A DNA stretch of 45,342 nucleotides, taken from IMG/VR virus record IMGVR_UViG_3300048833_000056, positions 1 through 45,342 of that record; one strand, given 5' to 3'. The first letter of the stretch is position 1. Each line of letters opens with the position of its first letter. The position numbers and the translations under genes were made by a program. The DNA comes from a virus. The notes beneath the pieces are model-generated. The model was not told the origin of the DNA. It worked only from the letters and a program-made list of their open reading frames with translations, and ran no database searches. This document shows positions 2,793-45,267 of the stretch, in pieces.

Positions 2793-3002
2793 TCACTGCT
2801 TGAGGGCGAACCGGTGCGCGTGGCAGTGAACCTTGCGCCCCGCGTCGTCGATGACTTCGACGTATGCAGGCCACACGAAGGGGCTTACGCCGTCGCTGCC
2901 CGCTTCCTCGTACCCGACCACGGTGTAGTCCTTGCCCAGGGTGAAGTCGTATCCGCGGGGGCCGCGACAGGTCACGACGTCGCCGGTGTTGAAGGTTTGC
3001 AT
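2793..3002 (-). CDS. Hypothetical early protein, 69 aa
   Basis: Small protein starting after AGGAGACCACC. The pattern NTGDVVTCRGPRG...LGKDYTVVGYEE, then YVEVIDDAGRKV, suggests a small SH3-like beta barrel of the kind seen in phage KOW-like proteins; similar openings (KVGDxVVR) occur in the genes at 41990 and 41499. Its stop lies 1 bp from the end of the oppositely oriented tRNA. Function unknown. Confidence 0.7.
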   Translation of the reverse strand: MQTFNTGDVVTCRGPRGYDFTLGKDYTVVGYEEAGSDGVSPFVWPAYVEVIDDAGRKVHCHAHRFALKQ

Positions 3003-3045
3003 GGTGGTCTCCTAGTGTGTTGGGGCGTGTTTGAGGTGTTCCGAA

Positions 3046-3071
3046 GGAATGCCCGCCTTGACAGGCATTCC
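3046..3071 (-). other. RNA hairpin between early genes
   Basis: Perfect 8-bp arms GGAATGCC/GGCATTCC with a 10-base loop, no U-tract. It lies between two early cistrons, the place where T7 early mRNA carries RNase III processing hairpins. Role inferred. Confidence 0.45.
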
Positions 3072-24681: not shown

Positions 24682-24712
24682 TAAAAAAAGCGGCCCCCGT
24701 GTGGGAGCCGCT
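24682..24712 (-). terminator. Terminator downstream of capsid
   Basis: Minus-strand stem AGCGGC/GCCGCT with an inner three-pair extension and a 4-base loop, followed by seven U. Same place as T-phi of T7, between genes 10 and 11, and so expected to make capsid mRNA exceed downstream mRNA. Confidence 0.85.
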
Positions 24713-24741
24713 TGAGGTGTTACTGAGGTGGAACTTGAGGC

Positions 24742-26814: not shown

Positions 26815-28341
26815 TCACTGTGCGGGTAGCTCGATGTCACCTTTGGCGACACCTTGAGCAATTGGTCCAGCGGCTTTGTCCATGACCTGTGCGGCCATTG
26901 CCTGCTGCTGTGCGGCTGCGTCTTCGGCTTGAATCTCTTCAACCGTCTTGAGCAGTTCGTCGAGTTCGTCGATGCCCCAGCCCACGCCTAGTCGCTTGGC
27001 GATGTTGGGTGCCTTCAGCACCTTCAATGCACCTTCAGGACCGAACATGTTGAAGAGGTCTTGCACGAACCCGCGCACCTTGTTCAATGCGTGGTTGCGA
27101 CCGAGAGCCTGGAATCCGGTGACGATGACTGGCTTGACCATGCCCTTCGGCAGGACAGCAATCTTGCGTGCCTTCTCCAGAACCAACTCGGTGCGGTTCA
27201 CCCATGGAACCTGCAGCTCTTGCGCTTGCACCGTGTAGACGCCGCCGACCACGTCTTCAAGTTCCTGCGCGATGGCACGAATCTCTTCAGCGGTCACACG
27301 TTCTGCGTCGCGGGTGGCACCGGAGCGCAGCAGGAACGCCTGCGCCAAACGCATCTCGATACCTTCAGCGACTTTCTGCGCGACTTGGAAGTCGGCGTAC
27401 TTGTCCAGCTGCAGGATGTCGATGTCGCGTAGGTCACCCACCACGGTGTCGCCGGACTCGGCGTTGTTGATGTCTTCCATCCGCGTGGTCGCGGACGGGT
27501 GTTTCAGGAATACGATTTTGGCTGCGACTGCGGCGAACTTGACGATGGCCTCACAGAGACCTTCGTACGAGATGAGGTCACCCATCAGTTCTTCGACGTG
27601 ACCACGCCCGTAGTGCGAACCGGGGACGGCCTTCCATCTACCAGGAATCCACGGAGATGCAGCTGCCGGCGCTTTACCACGCGAGCCGGGAACCTCAATC
27701 TCCTTAATCTCGCTCCAGTATTCAACCTTGCCGGCACGCCACTCAATCTTCGTGAAGACTTCGACGTCTTCCTTCTGGTCAGCGGGTACATCGCAGGCGA
27801 TGAGGACGGAAGCCTCAAGCGTCGACGGGTGGACCGTCTCGCGAACCACGGCGTCGATGGGTGCGCCTGAACCGTCCCGGCGAATGCGGTACTTGTCCAG
27901 CGTATACATCCGCATCTTCTGCATGTCTGGGTAGAACAGCAGCGCGTTGCCGCAGACCACGAGGTGTAACAGGAACTCGTTGAGGATTGGCCGCTGGGGC
28001 GAAGCCTCGACTTGATTCATGATGTCCGTCTCGCGTTGCGCGAGTGCCTTCTCGACCTCAGAGGTGTCGCCCTGCCCCGCTGCGGCCAGCGCGTCTTTCG
28101 ACAGCTGGTAGCGGAACGGGCTGGAACCCGGAGGGAACAGCGCAAGCAGGAGCTTGGAGGTGATGTTGTTGACGCCACGAGCGCCCAGCGATTGATACGG
28201 AGGGTCGAACGTGGATGCGTCGTTCGCGCCGGTGGGCGGCATCAGCGACGGAATCGTCAGCTTCGCGCATTCACGGGCACGCTCAAGCGGGGCGTTGTGG
28301 GCCGAAGCCAACTCCTCCCAGAGAGACTTTGCGGTTGCCAT
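26815..28341 (-). CDS. Portal (head-tail connector) protein (T7 gp8-like)
   Basis: 508 residues (gp8 has 536). Recognisable family stretches: LWEELASAHNAPLERARECAKLTIPSLMP, ARGVNNITSKLLLALFPP, FLLHLVVCGNALLFYP, GRGHVEELMGDLISYEGLCEA, and LLRSGATRDAERVTAEEIRAIAQELE. Forms the dodecameric ring through which DNA passes, and docks terminase and gp11. Confidence 0.95.
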   Translation of the reverse strand: MATAKSLWEELASAHNAPLERARECAKLTIPSLMPPTGANDASTFDPPYQSLGARGVNNITSKLLLALFPPGSSPFRYQLSKDALAAAGQGDTSEVEKALAQRETDIMNQVEASPQRPILNEFLLHLVVCGNALLFYPDMQKMRMYTLDKYRIRRDGSGAPIDAVVRETVHPSTLEASVLIACDVPADQKEDVEVFTKIEWRAGKVEYWSEIKEIEVPGSRGKAPAAASPWIPGRWKAVPGSHYGRGHVEELMGDLISYEGLCEAIVKFAAVAAKIVFLKHPSATTRMEDINNAESGDTVVGDLRDIDILQLDKYADFQVAQKVAEGIEMRLAQAFLLRSGATRDAERVTAEEIRAIAQELEDVVGGVYTVQAQELQVPWVNRTELVLEKARKIAVLPKGMVKPVIVTGFQALGRNHALNKVRGFVQDLFNMFGPEGALKVLKAPNIAKRLGVGWGIDELDELLKTVEEIQAEDAAAQQQAMAAQVMDKAAGPIAQGVAKGDIELPAQ

Positions 28342-28356: not shown

Positions 28357-28665
28357 TTACCTCTCCCGCGTCACAATCCGACCGGTGTTGATGCCGGGGG
28401 TCGTGTAGCCGGGACTTGAGGTGCCCGTGCCGACTCCGAAGCCTCCACCGCCGCCGTTGGGTGGGGTGATGACTGGAGGTGCGACTGGAGGAGTTACGGT
28501 GACGGGGCGGCGAGGCGTGCCTCGGTCGATGCGGAGTGAGTTGCGACCACGGGCGTCGGAACCGACGATTCCCAGTCCGTCAACCCAAGGGTTACTGAGG
28601 TACTGGACGGGCTTCTTCTCGTCGCCTGAGACCACCTGAGGCTTGGGTGCCTTGGTCGTACACAT
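28357..28665 (-). CDS. Pro/Gly-rich tail-assembly protein (T7 gp7.3-like)
   Basis: 102 residues; ATG overlaps the upstream stop (TGATG). Middle and C-terminal parts are low complexity (PVTVTPPVAPPVITPP, then GGGGGFGVGTGTSSPGY). In T7-like genomes the small gene before portal codes for gp7.3, a virion protein needed for adsorption and ejected with DNA. Assignment by position and composition only. Confidence 0.6.
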   Translation of the reverse strand: MCTTKAPKPQVVSGDEKKPVQYLSNPWVDGLGIVGSDARGRNSLRIDRGTPRRPVTVTPPVAPPVITPPNGGGGGFGVGTGTSSPGYTTPGINTGRIVTRER

Positions 28666-28865
28666 CAGCCCCTCCGAATCGGCGCATGGCCGCGTAGGGT
28701 CAACAGGTCGCGGACCAGCTCGCGCTTGCCTGCCTTCATCCACACAAGACGCTCAGGGTCACTGAGGTCCGGGGAGCGTTCGGGGTACAGCTCGTCGAGC
28801 ATGTCGATGAGGCTGCTGCAGGACAAGGCAATCGCCGCCTGCGTATCTGCGTCAGGCAGGTGCAT
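28665..28865 (-). CDS. Hypothetical protein, T7 gp6.7 position, 66 aa
   Basis: Small helical protein from ATG 28865 with RBS AGAGGACAG. Contains IALSCSSLIDMLDELYPERSPDLS and a basic end (LTLRGHAPIRRG). First gene after the structured RNA and its terminator; T7 has gp6.7, an ejected virion protein, at this location. Family not proven. Confidence 0.6.
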   Translation of the reverse strand: MHLPDADTQAAIALSCSSLIDMLDELYPERSPDLSDPERLVWMKAGKRELVRDLLTLRGHAPIRRG

Positions 28866-28877
28866 GTCTGTCCTCTG

Positions 28878-28920
28878 AAAAAAATCCCCGCCATGCCGGG
28901 AGAGAGTCGGCATAACGGGG
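28878..28920 (-). terminator. Strong intrinsic terminator before virion genes
   Basis: Stem CCCCG..ATGCCG/CGGCAT..CGGGG (28920-28908 with 28898-28886) with a two-base internal mismatch, a 9-base loop, then A and seven U (28884-28878). It lies only 13 bp before the start codon region of gene 28865. Confidence 0.88.
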
Positions 28921-29087
28921 AACGGGGTGGTGCTGGTCGAAGCAGCTCCCGTGGCTGGAACCCCCTTCAGGGGCCATGCGGGGAGCTGCTTCGGTAGTTG
29001 GTCGGGTGTTCACAGGTCGGGCTGGAAGGCCTCTGGGAACACCCGGTTTTCCACCTAAGGTGGATACTTAGAGGATGTCTGTCCTCC
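28878..29087 (-). ncRNA. Structured phage RNA, about 210 nt
   Basis: The predicted start is the +1 G of the phage promoter at 29104-29087 and the end is the U-run of a strong terminator. In between no gene is found. Minus-strand helices in order: GAGGA/TCCTC right at the 5' end; CCACC/GGTGG; a 9-pair stem GAACACCCG/CGGGTGTTC (29045-29037 with 29011-29003) with a 25-base loop; a perfect 13-pair stem (28993-28981 with 28950-28938) enclosing CCCC-UGAA-GGGG; then the terminator. This density of perfect helices is unlike the rest of the window. It could be a free regulatory or packaging-type RNA or a leader of the virion mRNA. Confidence 0.6.
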
Positions 29088-29104
29088 GATGGTGGCCCCT
29101 AATC
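29087..29104 (-). promoter_or_regulatory. Phage RNA polymerase promoter 1 (late)
   Basis: GATTAGGGGCCACCATCG on the minus strand; one of four near-identical 18-mers. Lined up with the T7 promoter, the block CACCATCG corresponds to CACTATAG, so transcription should start at the last G (29087). It overlaps the end of the exonuclease gene and feeds the structured RNA and the virion genes. Confidence 0.82.
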
Positions 29105-29864
29105 AATACGGGGGACACCACAGACGCACACGCTTGTTGGCGAAGTCCCAGTCCGAGGATCGGAGGATGCGGGCACAGCGTGCCTGGACAAGCGCGTCCT
29201 GTGCTGTGAAACCCTTCTTGGCGTACGCCTGTTTCACGACATCCCACATGCCCTTCAAGGTCTCCTGCTCGTCCAGCATCGGCACGAACCTTGACTTCTT
29301 CCCATGGCCTGGGCATCCCGGGTATCCATCGGTCGGATCGCCAGTGATCGTCTGCTCCATGAAGAAGCGGTCAGCTTCCCATACGGAGATCTTGCGGACG
29401 TCCTTATCCTTGGCCGGGTTGTAGAGCAGGCCCGGGATGGTCTGCATGTCCTTGTCTTCGGAGACGATAATCTTCGTGCCGGTGATGAGCGTCTTGTGCG
29501 TCGACAGGATTCCCATGCAGTCGTCAGCCTCAAGGCCGGGGCGCTGGTAGGTCTCGTATGTCTCGGCGAAGAAGTCCTTCACCTCACGCAGCGTGGACGG
29601 CTTCCGGGTGTCCTTGCGGTTTCCCTTGTAGTCGGGGTAGACGCCGGTGCGGAAGTTGTCCTCGTCGGTCAGGCAGATGATGAGCCGGGTGGCCTTCAGC
29701 TTGGTGGCGACTTCCTCCAGTAGACGCTTGGCGGTGTCGAGGGCGCGGTCGAGGTTGGGTGCGACCGCAGGTTCACCGTCGGTGCCACCGAAGTGGTACA
29801 CGCCCTCGCAAGCTGACGCCGCCTTGAACGCGAAGATGTCGGCGTCGATCAGGAGGGTGGTCAT
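29103..29864 (-). CDS. 5'-3' exonuclease (T7 gp6-like)
   Basis: 253 residues, a FEN/5'-nuclease-type enzyme that degrades host DNA and removes primers. Metal-binding acids: LLIDADIFAF at the start, LEADDCMGIL (about 115-123) and VSEDKDMQTI (about 137-146); then a helix-hairpin-helix-like part with GDPTDGYPGCPGHGKKS. Shorter than T7 gp6 (300). ATG overlaps the upstream stop. Confidence 0.9.
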   Translation of the reverse strand: MTTLLIDADIFAFKAASACEGVYHFGGTDGEPAVAPNLDRALDTAKRLLEEVATKLKATRLIICLTDEDNFRTGVYPDYKGNRKDTRKPSTLREVKDFFAETYETYQRPGLEADDCMGILSTHKTLITGTKIIVSEDKDMQTIPGLLYNPAKDKDVRKISVWEADRFFMEQTITGDPTDGYPGCPGHGKKSRFVPMLDEQETLKGMWDVVKQAYAKKGFTAQDALVQARCARILRSSDWDFANKRVRLWCPPY

Positions 29865-42346: not shown

Positions 42347-42356
42347 TCTGGTCGTG

Positions 42357-42374
42357 CGATGGTGGCCCTTAATC
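42357..42374 (-). promoter_or_regulatory. Phage RNA polymerase promoter 2
   Basis: GATTAAGGGCCACCATCG on the minus strand, start at 42357. The first 15 transcribed bases are identical to those behind promoter 3, so the unit has been duplicated. Confidence 0.82.
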
Positions 42375-42467
42375 GAAAGGCCTTTGGCAGTGGGCTGCAC
42401 TTCGTCGTTGGTTAGTGGGAGCAGAGCGGACTACATAAGGATTCCTCGGTTGTCGTTTCTGGTCGTG

Positions 42468-42485
42468 CGATGGTGGCCCTTAATC
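42468..42485 (-). promoter_or_regulatory. Phage RNA polymerase promoter 3
   Basis: Same 18-mer, start at 42468, in tandem 111 bp upstream of promoter 2. Between the two promoters there is no gene. The leader has GAGGAATCC followed by ATG and immediately TAG, a start-stop pair. Confidence 0.82.
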
Positions 42486-42499
42486 AAATACGGATCGCT

Positions 42500-42513
42500 A
42501 TCCGATATCGGAT
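42500..42513. promoter_or_regulatory. Operator palindrome ATCCG-ATAT-CGGAT
   Basis: The only copy whose centre is also self-complementary, giving a 14-bp perfect palindrome. It lies 3 bp behind the RNA polymerase stop and just upstream of promoter 3, with an extra half-site CGGAT at 42491-42495. Confidence 0.68.
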
Positions 42514-42516
42514 TAC

Positions 42517-44973
42517 TTACGCGAAAAGGAAGTCACTGTTATGGACAGCCTGCAAATCCAGGGAACCGTAGCCGGGAAGCTCCGGCAGTTCGGCCAACAG
42601 CTCCGGCCTCGTTGCCCTCAGCTGCGTCCCGACCTCGTCACGGAAGCGACCCAGGACGTCAGGCGTGTATTGCTCGACGAACGCCGTGCGGATCACCGCG
42701 TGCAGCTTGTCGGTGTCGCAGGCGTGGGTGCCGAAGCTGTCGTGGATGACAGCCAGGGAGCCGATACCGTTGATCGTGCAGAGCTGTGCCGTACGCATCA
42801 GGTGGCTGGAGTCTAGCGAGTGGACGAAGTTGGGAGCGATGCCCGACGACTGACGGCGGGAGTCGATCTCTTCGGTCTCGACCGCCAGCATCAGTTTGGT
42901 CTCGACGCCGTCCACGAACACCTTCACGCGGGTGCCCTCTTCGATACGGTACGCCTGCATCACAGGCAGTCCCATCGGCGTCGTCCAGCGGATAGGCAGC
43001 TTGGCCTTCGACAGCAGCTTGGATGCCGACTGCAGCCAGTCCATCGCACCACGCGCTGCCACCACCACTTCACCCAGGGCATCCCAGATAACAGCCGCGG
43101 CGTACCCAGAAGCTGCGTAGTTCTCCACGTCACCGTGCAACCAGCGACCTTCCTCTGCATCCAGCTTGTCCAGAGCCGCTTCGATCTGCTTGTGCATGCC
43201 GCGCTTGGTTGCGGAGTAGCACAGCGTCATCGTCGGCTGCTTCGCCACCTTGCGGCAGAACTTCCCTTGCCATGTGGAAGCGTATTCGCTATCGGATTCG
43301 TCGGACATGACTTGGGCGCGCTTCGACACTGCGGTGTAGACATCGGCAGGTTTCTCCGAAGGCACGAGGTTCACCGCCGCGCCCCCGATCTCGTCACGCA
43401 GCAGTGCGCTGAAGTGCTGAAGGCCGGAGCAGCTGCCGTCCATGGCAATGCTCAGGTGCGAGACGTGTGCGTCACCGTTGGTCTTGTATCCCATCCACTC
43501 AATGCACGCGGCCAGGGCGCAGAACGGATCATCAGCGGTCTGCCAGAAGCCTTCGCCGTCGATGGGATCCAGGGCGGACTCCAGGATCTGCTCCTCGTGC
43601 TGCATGACCCAGTCGATACGGTCGTCGAAGGACACCTTGTCGACACCGAACAGGTTCGCGATGTGAACCGCCAGCCAGTACGCGCCGGTCTCACCCAAGG
43701 CTTTTCCTTCGGCGAACTGGAGGAGACCCTTGGCGACGTCATCACCCTGGGGGTTCAGGAAGTTGGCGTACGGATACACGCGACCGCGGAAGTCCAGGTA
43801 GTGCGGGAAGTAGATCGCGTCCTCACCCTTGAACTTGTCTGCGACGAACAGCTTCTGCGCCACCTGGGCACGCTCCGACCGCAGCGAGTAGTTCTTCTCG
43901 TGGATCTTTGCGGCCTCCCGCTTCCACTCCTTGAGGGCTTCCTGCTGCTCGATGGCGAGGTCGGCCATCTTGGCGTCCGTGGGGACACCGTGAGGGCGCA
44001 CGGGCAGCGGCTTGTCGTGCCGGCTGGGGAGACCCTTGCTGTTGATCTCGTTGTCCCAGAGCGTACGCAGCACCTCCAGGACGCGGGTGTTGATCCGCCA
44101 GGGCGTCGCCTGCACCGCATTGACCGCCTGCAGCACGTTGGACAGGTCAAGGGAACCCAGTTCGTCCAGGTACTCACGACTCCGGGTGCGAACCAGGCGC
44201 GGCTTGAGGGCGTCCGTGAGGTAGCCACCGGCGTAAGGGTGCTTCCAGTCCCGCGGCGCATGCACCATCGGCAGATGCAGGGGCGACAGCAGGGCGCACT
44301 GCTCGTGAGACTTGGTCAAGACCTTCAGCCATTCGTCCGAGAAGTGGACTTCGATGGGGGTGTCCCGGGTGCCCTTGGTCATGCGAACCAGCTGCACGAT
44401 GTCCGTGGCGTCCATGAACAGCTCCAGGAGCTTGGTGCCCAGGAGAACCTTCTCGGTCTCGTTCCAGCTGACTTCCTTCTCCGAGTACCGGGCGATGACC
44501 GTGTTGTAGACCGCGCTCCGGTGGCGGGCCGAGGTCGAGGTCTTCAGCTGCTCGGCCACCTTGCGGTACAGGCCGGGGTGTTCCTTGGTCAGCCTCACGA
44601 TGTTCAGGTGTTCCTGAATCATGTTGGCGATGTTCAGGGCGACGTGCTGGAGGTTCTTGGCCGAGGACGCGCCGTTGATCGCAGCCCTGGCCGTCAGGTA
44701 AGCAGCCTGCTCCGGGGCCAGCTTGGTGATGTACGGGAGGGCGGCATGCTTGCGCCCCGCCTTGCCCTCAGCAGCCCGCTCGATGAACTTCTCGATCAGC
44801 AGGGCGGTCGGCTCGATGGCCTTCTTCAGGAGTCGCCTGCCGGGGAGCGTATCGGCCTCTGCGCTCTCGTCCTTGGCCTTCTCGTACCTGTCCACACCCA
44901 GGATCAGGCTCTCCTGCTCCAGGGCAATCTGGCGGTCACGCAGGGTGTCACTTGAGGTTTCACTGGTGGTCAT
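42517..44973 (-). CDS. Phage RNA polymerase, single subunit (T7 gp1-like)
   Basis: 818 residues (T7 gp1 has 883). All catalytic motifs are present: AMDGSCSGLQHFSA with the first Asp (about 511), KQPTMTLCYSATKRG with Lys and Tyr (about 583-592), and VIHDSFGTHACD with the second Asp (about 743). RBS GGAGAGACC before ATG. It reads the four phage promoters found here, including one in front of its own gene. In the provirus it is separated from the early promoter by integration at attP and is flanked on both sides by operator copies. Confidence 0.97.
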   Translation of the reverse strand: MTTSETSSDTLRDRQIALEQESLILGVDRYEKAKDESAEADTLPGRRLLKKAIEPTALLIEKFIERAAEGKAGRKHAALPYITKLAPEQAAYLTARAAINGASSAKNLQHVALNIANMIQEHLNIVRLTKEHPGLYRKVAEQLKTSTSARHRSAVYNTVIARYSEKEVSWNETEKVLLGTKLLELFMDATDIVQLVRMTKGTRDTPIEVHFSDEWLKVLTKSHEQCALLSPLHLPMVHAPRDWKHPYAGGYLTDALKPRLVRTRSREYLDELGSLDLSNVLQAVNAVQATPWRINTRVLEVLRTLWDNEINSKGLPSRHDKPLPVRPHGVPTDAKMADLAIEQQEALKEWKREAAKIHEKNYSLRSERAQVAQKLFVADKFKGEDAIYFPHYLDFRGRVYPYANFLNPQGDDVAKGLLQFAEGKALGETGAYWLAVHIANLFGVDKVSFDDRIDWVMQHEEQILESALDPIDGEGFWQTADDPFCALAACIEWMGYKTNGDAHVSHLSIAMDGSCSGLQHFSALLRDEIGGAAVNLVPSEKPADVYTAVSKRAQVMSDESDSEYASTWQGKFCRKVAKQPTMTLCYSATKRGMHKQIEAALDKLDAEEGRWLHGDVENYAASGYAAAVIWDALGEVVVAARGAMDWLQSASKLLSKAKLPIRWTTPMGLPVMQAYRIEEGTRVKVFVDGVETKLMLAVETEEIDSRRQSSGIAPNFVHSLDSSHLMRTAQLCTINGIGSLAVIHDSFGTHACDTDKLHAVIRTAFVEQYTPDVLGRFRDEVGTQLRATRPELLAELPELPGYGSLDLQAVHNSDFLFA

Positions 44974-45005
44974 CTTTAGGTCTCTCCTATGGTGTGGGCT
45001 TCGCC

Positions 45006-45023
45006 CGATGGTGGCCCTTAATC
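45006..45023 (-). promoter_or_regulatory. Phage RNA polymerase promoter 4 (autogenous)
   Basis: GATTAAGGGCCACCATCG, start at 45006 with a GGG initial sequence, 33 bp before the polymerase ATG. Would allow positive feedback once some polymerase is made. Confidence 0.82.
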
Positions 45024-45037
45024 AAACCCGGAAGGCC

Positions 45038-45051
45038 ATCCGGTAGCGGAT
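45038..45051. promoter_or_regulatory. Operator palindrome ATCCG-GTAG-CGGAT
   Basis: Exact copy upstream of the polymerase gene, 15 bp from phage promoter 4 and about 10 bp beyond the terminator. No clear sigma-70 promoter is seen here; a bound protein could block read-through. Confidence 0.68.
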
Positions 45052-45172: not shown

Positions 45173-45215
45173 GGTGAGCCGCGGCTAAGTCGTTGAATCC
45201 AAAGGGCGCGAACCG

Positions 45216-45256
<41 letters not shown>

Positions 45257-45267
45257 TGGCTGTGGGC

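Follow-up and report, generated by a model that had tools for sequence, protein, structure and literature searches.

Transcription of late genes from a single promoter is known from bacteriophage lambda, where the sole late promoter, pR', is followed by an intrinsic terminator, tR', and by the late operon, and where the leader corresponds to the 6S RNA of about 194 nt. The lambda late leader is transcribed by the host multi-subunit RNA polymerase and depends on the Q antiterminator. T7 is the textbook case of another arrangement, in which the late genes are driven simply by strong phage promoters; an RNase III site is found at the phi6.5 position of this phage. A third system is offered by LUZ100, a Pseudomonas phage with an integrase and a MarR protein whose transcript ends were mapped by sequencing and which has the phage promoter phi6 and the terminator T11 before its portal gene; it is a T7-like phage with temperate features (PMC10134795), and its lifestyle is probably similar to that of the phage studied here. 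The terminator of T7 itself works with an efficiency of 62% in vivo, so that termination by T7 RNA polymerase is partial there; an engineered hairpin stopped 91% of T7 RNA polymerase and 99% of E. coli RNA polymerase (PMC9157156).

We analysed a viral stretch of 45,342 nucleotides, hereafter the window, in which a structured RNA had been proposed between a phage promoter and a strong terminator, just ahead of the virion genes. Our results point to a promoter-terminator pair that recurs in many T7-like phages and that probably acts as a leaky gate at the entry of the late operon.

Results

The window phage and its genomic context

The record is that of a T7-like phage of 45.3 kb whose RNA polymerase, primase/helicase, DNA polymerase, exonuclease, portal, scaffold, major capsid and tail genes all lie on the − strand. 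The T7-type single-subunit RNA polymerase (RNAP) is encoded at positions 42517 to 44973 (PHROG 414, E = 2e-256). The last middle gene (29103 to 29864, − strand) encodes an exonuclease of the T7 gp6 type (PHROG 107, E = 2e-67), and its end overlaps the late promoter described below. The first late ORF, of 66 aa (28665 to 28865, − strand), has the RBS AGAGGA at positions 28876 to 28871, and the portal or head-tail adaptor is found at positions 26815 to 28341 of the same strand (PHROG 449, E = 2e-152).

A phage integrase (145 to 1293, Pfam PF00589) and, beside the same end, a weakly MarR-like ORF (1447 to 1773) were also found. A tRNA-Leu(UAG) gene of the host is split into two halves, which lie around the repeated AGATTTAGGTTC at the window ends (1 to 130 and 45200 to 45260). 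Since these halves occur at both ends and an integrase is present, the sequence indicates that the phage is most likely an integrated prophage. The promoter of the host tRNA-Leu gene, which is truncated, is directed into the prophage, toward the phage RNAP gene. We also observed an intact tRNA-Leu(UAG) gene within the prophage (2707 to 2791, + strand), which shares its isotype with the host gene that is interrupted.

A single phage promoter precedes the virion genes

The promoter TTGATTARGGGCCACCATCG is present in exactly four copies in the window, all on the − strand, with first bases at 29106, 42376, 42487 and 45025; none was expected from shuffled sequences, and the next best site had six mismatches. 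One copy, TTGATTAGGGGCCACCATCG(+1), covers positions 29087 to 29106 and has its +1 at 29087, in agreement with the original prediction of a phage promoter starting at this nucleotide. The other three are sequence matches located after the RNAP gene (42352 to 42376, and a second one at 42463 to 42487) and upstream of it (45001 to 45025). The genome-wide search thus placed only one of the four sites at the late genes. As its copies flank the RNAP gene, the late promoter is of the phage type and not one read by the host multi-subunit RNAP, and a sigma70 host promoter sought in the region was not found. Two of the four phage promoters have an upstream palindrome, ATCCGNTANCGGATNGC..TCCG (window 42463-42513 and 45001-45051), that the late promoter does not have; at these RNAP promoters, it is possibly a repressor operator.

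The predicted leader RNA is highly structured

From the +1 to the end of the U-run, the predicted leader RNA is 210 nt long (28878 to 29087, − strand). Folding of positions 29087 to 28878 gave a minimum free energy (MFE) of −103.7 kcal/mol, compared with −68.7±4.8 kcal/mol for shuffled sequences (z = −7.3), none of 200 shuffles being as good, and the centroid was identical to the MFE structure. When the terminator hairpin was removed, the leader body still gave a z of −5.9. The proposal of a strong structure with five helices, including stems of 9 and 13 pairs, is therefore borne out by the predicted fold, which has hairpins of 6, 6, 9 (plus an inner part), 13 (plus an inner part) and 14 bp, the last being the terminator. 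The 5'-terminal hairpin, GGAGGA-cagaca-UCCUCU (29070 to 29087), lies in a region common to two related phages, L006 and L007; across 27 leaders, conservation of such a hairpin exceeded that in shuffles no more than modestly (Wilcoxon p = 0.03). The core of hairpin 2, CCACCUUAGGUGG (29050 to 29064), CACCU(A)AGGUG, is also present in L007, and L006 has a similar one. For hairpin 3, with a 9-bp outer stem (29003 to 29045), no equivalent was found in the relatives, and at the place of hairpin 4, with a 13-bp outer stem (28938 to 28993), L006 and L007 have tRNA genes.

The leader contains no credible gene, as had been proposed: the longest frame, found by eye, has 41 codons, lacks a Shine-Dalgarno sequence and crosses the terminator. 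No Rfam family was detected in the region at gathering or permissive thresholds, the best weak match being sX13 (E = 0.25, 17.7 of 50 bits), and no nucleotide match to the leader RNA was found among 50,697 phage records. Neither ARAGORN nor Rfam gave a cloverleaf in the window leader, and no tRNA relic was detected. A stretch of 12 nt, GAGGACAGACAT, is found at the leader 5' end (29075 to 29086) and a second time where the first late ORF has its RBS (28864 to 28875); a repeat as long as this one occurred in 3 of 2000 shuffles.

Two terminators of the same build

The intrinsic terminator (28878 to 28921, − strand), seen both in the fold and in the scan, is made of a 14-bp stem (28921 to 28885) with the loop ACUCUCUCC, followed by seven U (28884 to 28878), and has a predicted energy of −26 kcal/mol. 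Hairpins below −20 kcal/mol followed by at least seven T occurred only twice on the − strand of the window, and 20 shuffles of this strand gave one in total; the strong seven-U terminator proposed before the virion genes is thus one of two. The scan placed the second (24683 to 24713, − strand) directly after the major capsid gene, which is the T-phi position, and a hairpin is present at the same place in relatives, including the Caulobacter phage S2B (MN857473). In six of these relatives (L265-L270) the hairpin 3' of the major capsid protein (MCP) gene is followed by T5 to T8, L265 and L266 having T5; in S2B a short spacer separates the hairpin from the T-run, and in L004 the hairpin lacks a long T-run. 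L004, which is the closest relative by its portal (79% identity), also has a tRNA-like sequence directly upstream of the capsid gene (about 2960 to 3050). As the first terminator has the same build as the second, or a stronger one, the phage polymerase should, by analogy, recognise both.

The promoter-terminator order recurs in related phages

By a protein-guided search we obtained 80 exonuclease loci, to which further scans added more. In the nearest relatives, whose exonucleases are 50-72% identical to that of the window, the exonuclease stop codon is followed in order by a promoter, an RNA, a terminator, an RBS, a small ORF and the portal gene. We then applied a uniform criterion, a hairpin followed by six or more T and located 30-400 nt past the exonuclease stop. 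Such a terminator was found in 31 distinct phage loci linked to the exonuclease, most of which have a phage promoter before it. The same scan found none in the group around L026-L046, in LUZ100, in RHEph01 or in T7. Promoter sequences vary among phages and, in those checked, recur around the phage's own RNAP gene (L006, L008, L009, L013, L022, L019 and S2B). Over whole records, L006 has four sites, L022 three and S2B three, and in each only one is at the late genes. As the genomes checked have only one late promoter, the phage polymerase has to pass the terminator in order to transcribe the virion genes. A layout repeated in so many relatives is unlikely to be an accident.

These loci bear on the idea that the leader serves only in processing or stabilisation, like T7 R6.5, with RNase III or another RNase cutting the hairpins and the U-run being incidental. 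Its position between gene 6 and gene 6.5, as in T7 phi6.5/R6.5, its 5'-terminal hairpin and its long perfect helices, long enough for RNase III, would fit this idea; but nearly all element-bearing relatives have T6 to T9 after the stem although the stems differ, which is not given by chance, and we hold this explanation to be quite improbable. In L015 and L019, moreover, the terminator is separated from the first ORF by a tRNA gene, so that the U-run is not merely part of an RBS.

Four relatives (L048, L050, L069 and L222) have the terminator upstream of a putative late promoter (GTAAGTNNYTGATT..GGGGGG), a weaker call because it is based on two genomes with two copies each, and in L047 the terminator is absent; the downstream position is thus not universal. 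The terminator could then be only a boundary insulator, whose hairpin halts the host RNAP and is ignored by the phage polymerase, no discrete RNA being made and the leader protecting the 5' end of the late mRNA. The terminators are indeed exactly at the middle/late boundary, before the promoter in these four loci, and the window is an apparent prophage with a host tRNA-Leu promoter directed inward. Such an insulator would, however, serve better upstream of the promoter, and a hairpin and T-run of the same type follow the MCP gene at the T-phi position, a known stop site for T7-type polymerases; we therefore consider it unlikely that insulation is the only role. No link with lysogeny emerged, since integrase genes occurred both with and without the terminator among the phages compared and gave no separation.

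What lies between promoter and terminator

The contents of the leader are far more variable. About the first 45 nt of the window leader are common to L006 and L007 and the remainder is replaced; whole-body homology was sought in the relatives and gave only these 5' nucleotides with L006/L007. Against L007, none of 200 shuffles was as similar, and against L006 the similarity over the whole body had p = 0.065. The predicted RNAs of L006 and L007 are about 360 nt long and hold tRNA-Asn or tRNA-Asn plus tRNA-Met, located past the late promoter and ahead of the terminator (L006 4972-5047, L007 4923-5078). Elsewhere, the body before the terminator has 125-260 nt with other hairpins (L008-L010, L013-L014) or 12-41 nt (L012, L015-L022). 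The terminator stem, in contrast, shows compensatory changes, C-G and A-U in L006 versus U-A and G-C in L007, and A-U in S2B versus C-G in D5; we read these from the folds because the MAFFT alignment of type I terminators was poor. The comparison with related phages called for in the original prediction thus yielded compensatory changes in the terminator stem, and no conservation of the 210-nt RNA beyond about 45 nt. Judged by sequence, the promoter-terminator pair is conserved in several groups of T7-like phages and the 210-nt RNA as a whole is not. A chance element or local relic, that is a degenerate tRNA or hairpin cassette with no function, would agree with the unconserved body and with the 12-nt repeat at both ends, which hints at an insertion or duplication; as the terminator and promoter are kept across divergent phages, with compensatory changes, this is very improbable.

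Two groups of leaders have features of their own. In sphingomonad-type leaders (L051, L111, L230, L237, L240 and L244), a GGUCC-type stretch can pair first with the 5' arm of the terminator, the competing fold having a probability of 0.43-0.66 in the L111/L230/L237 type; according to these folding models, the stretch is possibly an antiterminator. A competing fold of the terminator arm was not seen in the window leader (0.13). In leaders of the Caulobacter S2B type (L102, L113, L251, L253 and L257), a GGAGCCGAAAGGC hairpin and an unpaired UC-rich CUGGUUCUCUCC are kept.

The RNA could also act in trans as a regulatory sRNA, for example antisense to the RBSs of the phage RNAP and early middle genes for late shut-off. 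The window, L006 and L007 all retain the terminator loop CUCUCUCC; GGAGAGA is found twice on the − strand of the window, both times in an RBS, one being that of the RNAP gene; and the S2B leader, whose UC-rich unpaired stretch is kept in its relatives, has an 11-nt complement to the RBS of the S2B RNAP gene. Among the 51 window genes, the RNAP RBS did rank first for the terminator loop. Yet duplex energies to RBSs were no better than those of shuffled loops (P = 0.89 for the window and 0.84 for S2B), the match to the RNAP RBS is not kept in S2B relatives, being lost in L262 and L263 though the leader motif remains, and the bulk of the RNA is not conserved. Antisense pairing to RBSs was thus rejected, and the earlier suggestion of translation control gained no support in the form of such pairing; an action in trans is, in our view, improbable. 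Nothing pointed to the roles in packaging or host-factor capture that had also been suggested.

Discussion

We propose, with somewhat better than even confidence and largely by analogy, that the element is a leaky promoter-proximal intrinsic terminator that yields a short leader RNA and a read-through late mRNA and blocks the host polymerase. The phage RNA polymerase would start at 29087, and the 5' end of the leader would be closed by a hairpin. At 28878, some polymerases would stop and release a stable and abundant RNA of about 210 nt, and the remaining ones would continue into the virion genes and meet another valve of this kind past the capsid gene. Any host RNA polymerase that comes in from the early and middle genes, or from the promoter of the host tRNA-Leu gene, would be stopped almost completely, and the virion genes would therefore be silent before the phage polymerase appears. 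This RNA, once released, would double as a slot, in which sister phages place tRNA genes. We infer termination by the phage polymerase at the U-run, the degree of leakiness and the usefulness of the valve, and, by analogy with T7, a stop that would be partial for the phage polymerase and nearly complete for the host enzyme. The discrete RNA with partial read-through put forward in the original prediction gains support from the layout repeated in many relatives. Against a leaky terminator, the loss of output from the sole late promoter looks costly.

No description of this promoter-terminator arrangement in T7-like phages was found in the open-access literature searched, and it is apparently undescribed so far. 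If our reading is correct, termination would be the gate to virion production in many T7-like phages, temperate ones included, as it is in lambda, and the short RNA would rank among the most abundant transcripts of the phage and offer a natural site for expressing tRNAs or regulatory RNAs. A bolder extension, which we regard as doubtful, is that temperate T7-like phages of a widespread group place their virion genes under regulated termination of the single-subunit RNAP, as an independent counterpart of lambda pR'-tR', the leader RNA (through a competing antiterminator hairpin in some groups) setting the read-through and a very abundant small RNA being produced.

Among T7-like phages, S2B, whose host in the laboratory is Caulobacter strain CB15, is like the window in its order of promoter, leader, terminator and late gene, with a predicted RNA of 87 nt and a U8; its promoter and leader sequences are different, and its record carries no annotated promoter, terminator or RNA. 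In LUZ100, T11 is about 0.8 kb past phi6 and inside coding sequence, and there is a local MCP promoter (PMC10134795). The window resembles T7 phi6.5-R6.5 in having a phage promoter after the exonuclease gene, a leader hairpin and then the first late gene, but T7 has no terminator at phi6.5, and its late genes are served by additional promoters such as phi10. The terminator itself, a GC-rich hairpin with a U-run (14 bp, U7), has the class I build of T7 T-phi, and leakiness for a T7-type RNAP would be expected by analogy. T-phi follows gene 10, and the window has both its counterpart (24683 to 24713) and an extra terminator 210 nt after the late promoter. The likeness to lambda pR'-tR' lies in the one late promoter that precedes all the virion genes, also found in L006, L022 and S2B, and in the non-coding RNA of about 200 nt, the predicted intrinsic terminator about 200 nt downstream and the late operon. 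Unlike in lambda, a T7-type single-subunit polymerase is expected to act here, neither Q nor a qut site is known, and folding of the window leader showed no antiterminator. It is on the polymerase that membership in the lambda pR'-tR' type fails, while the order of promoter, short RNA, terminator and late operon is the same in both.
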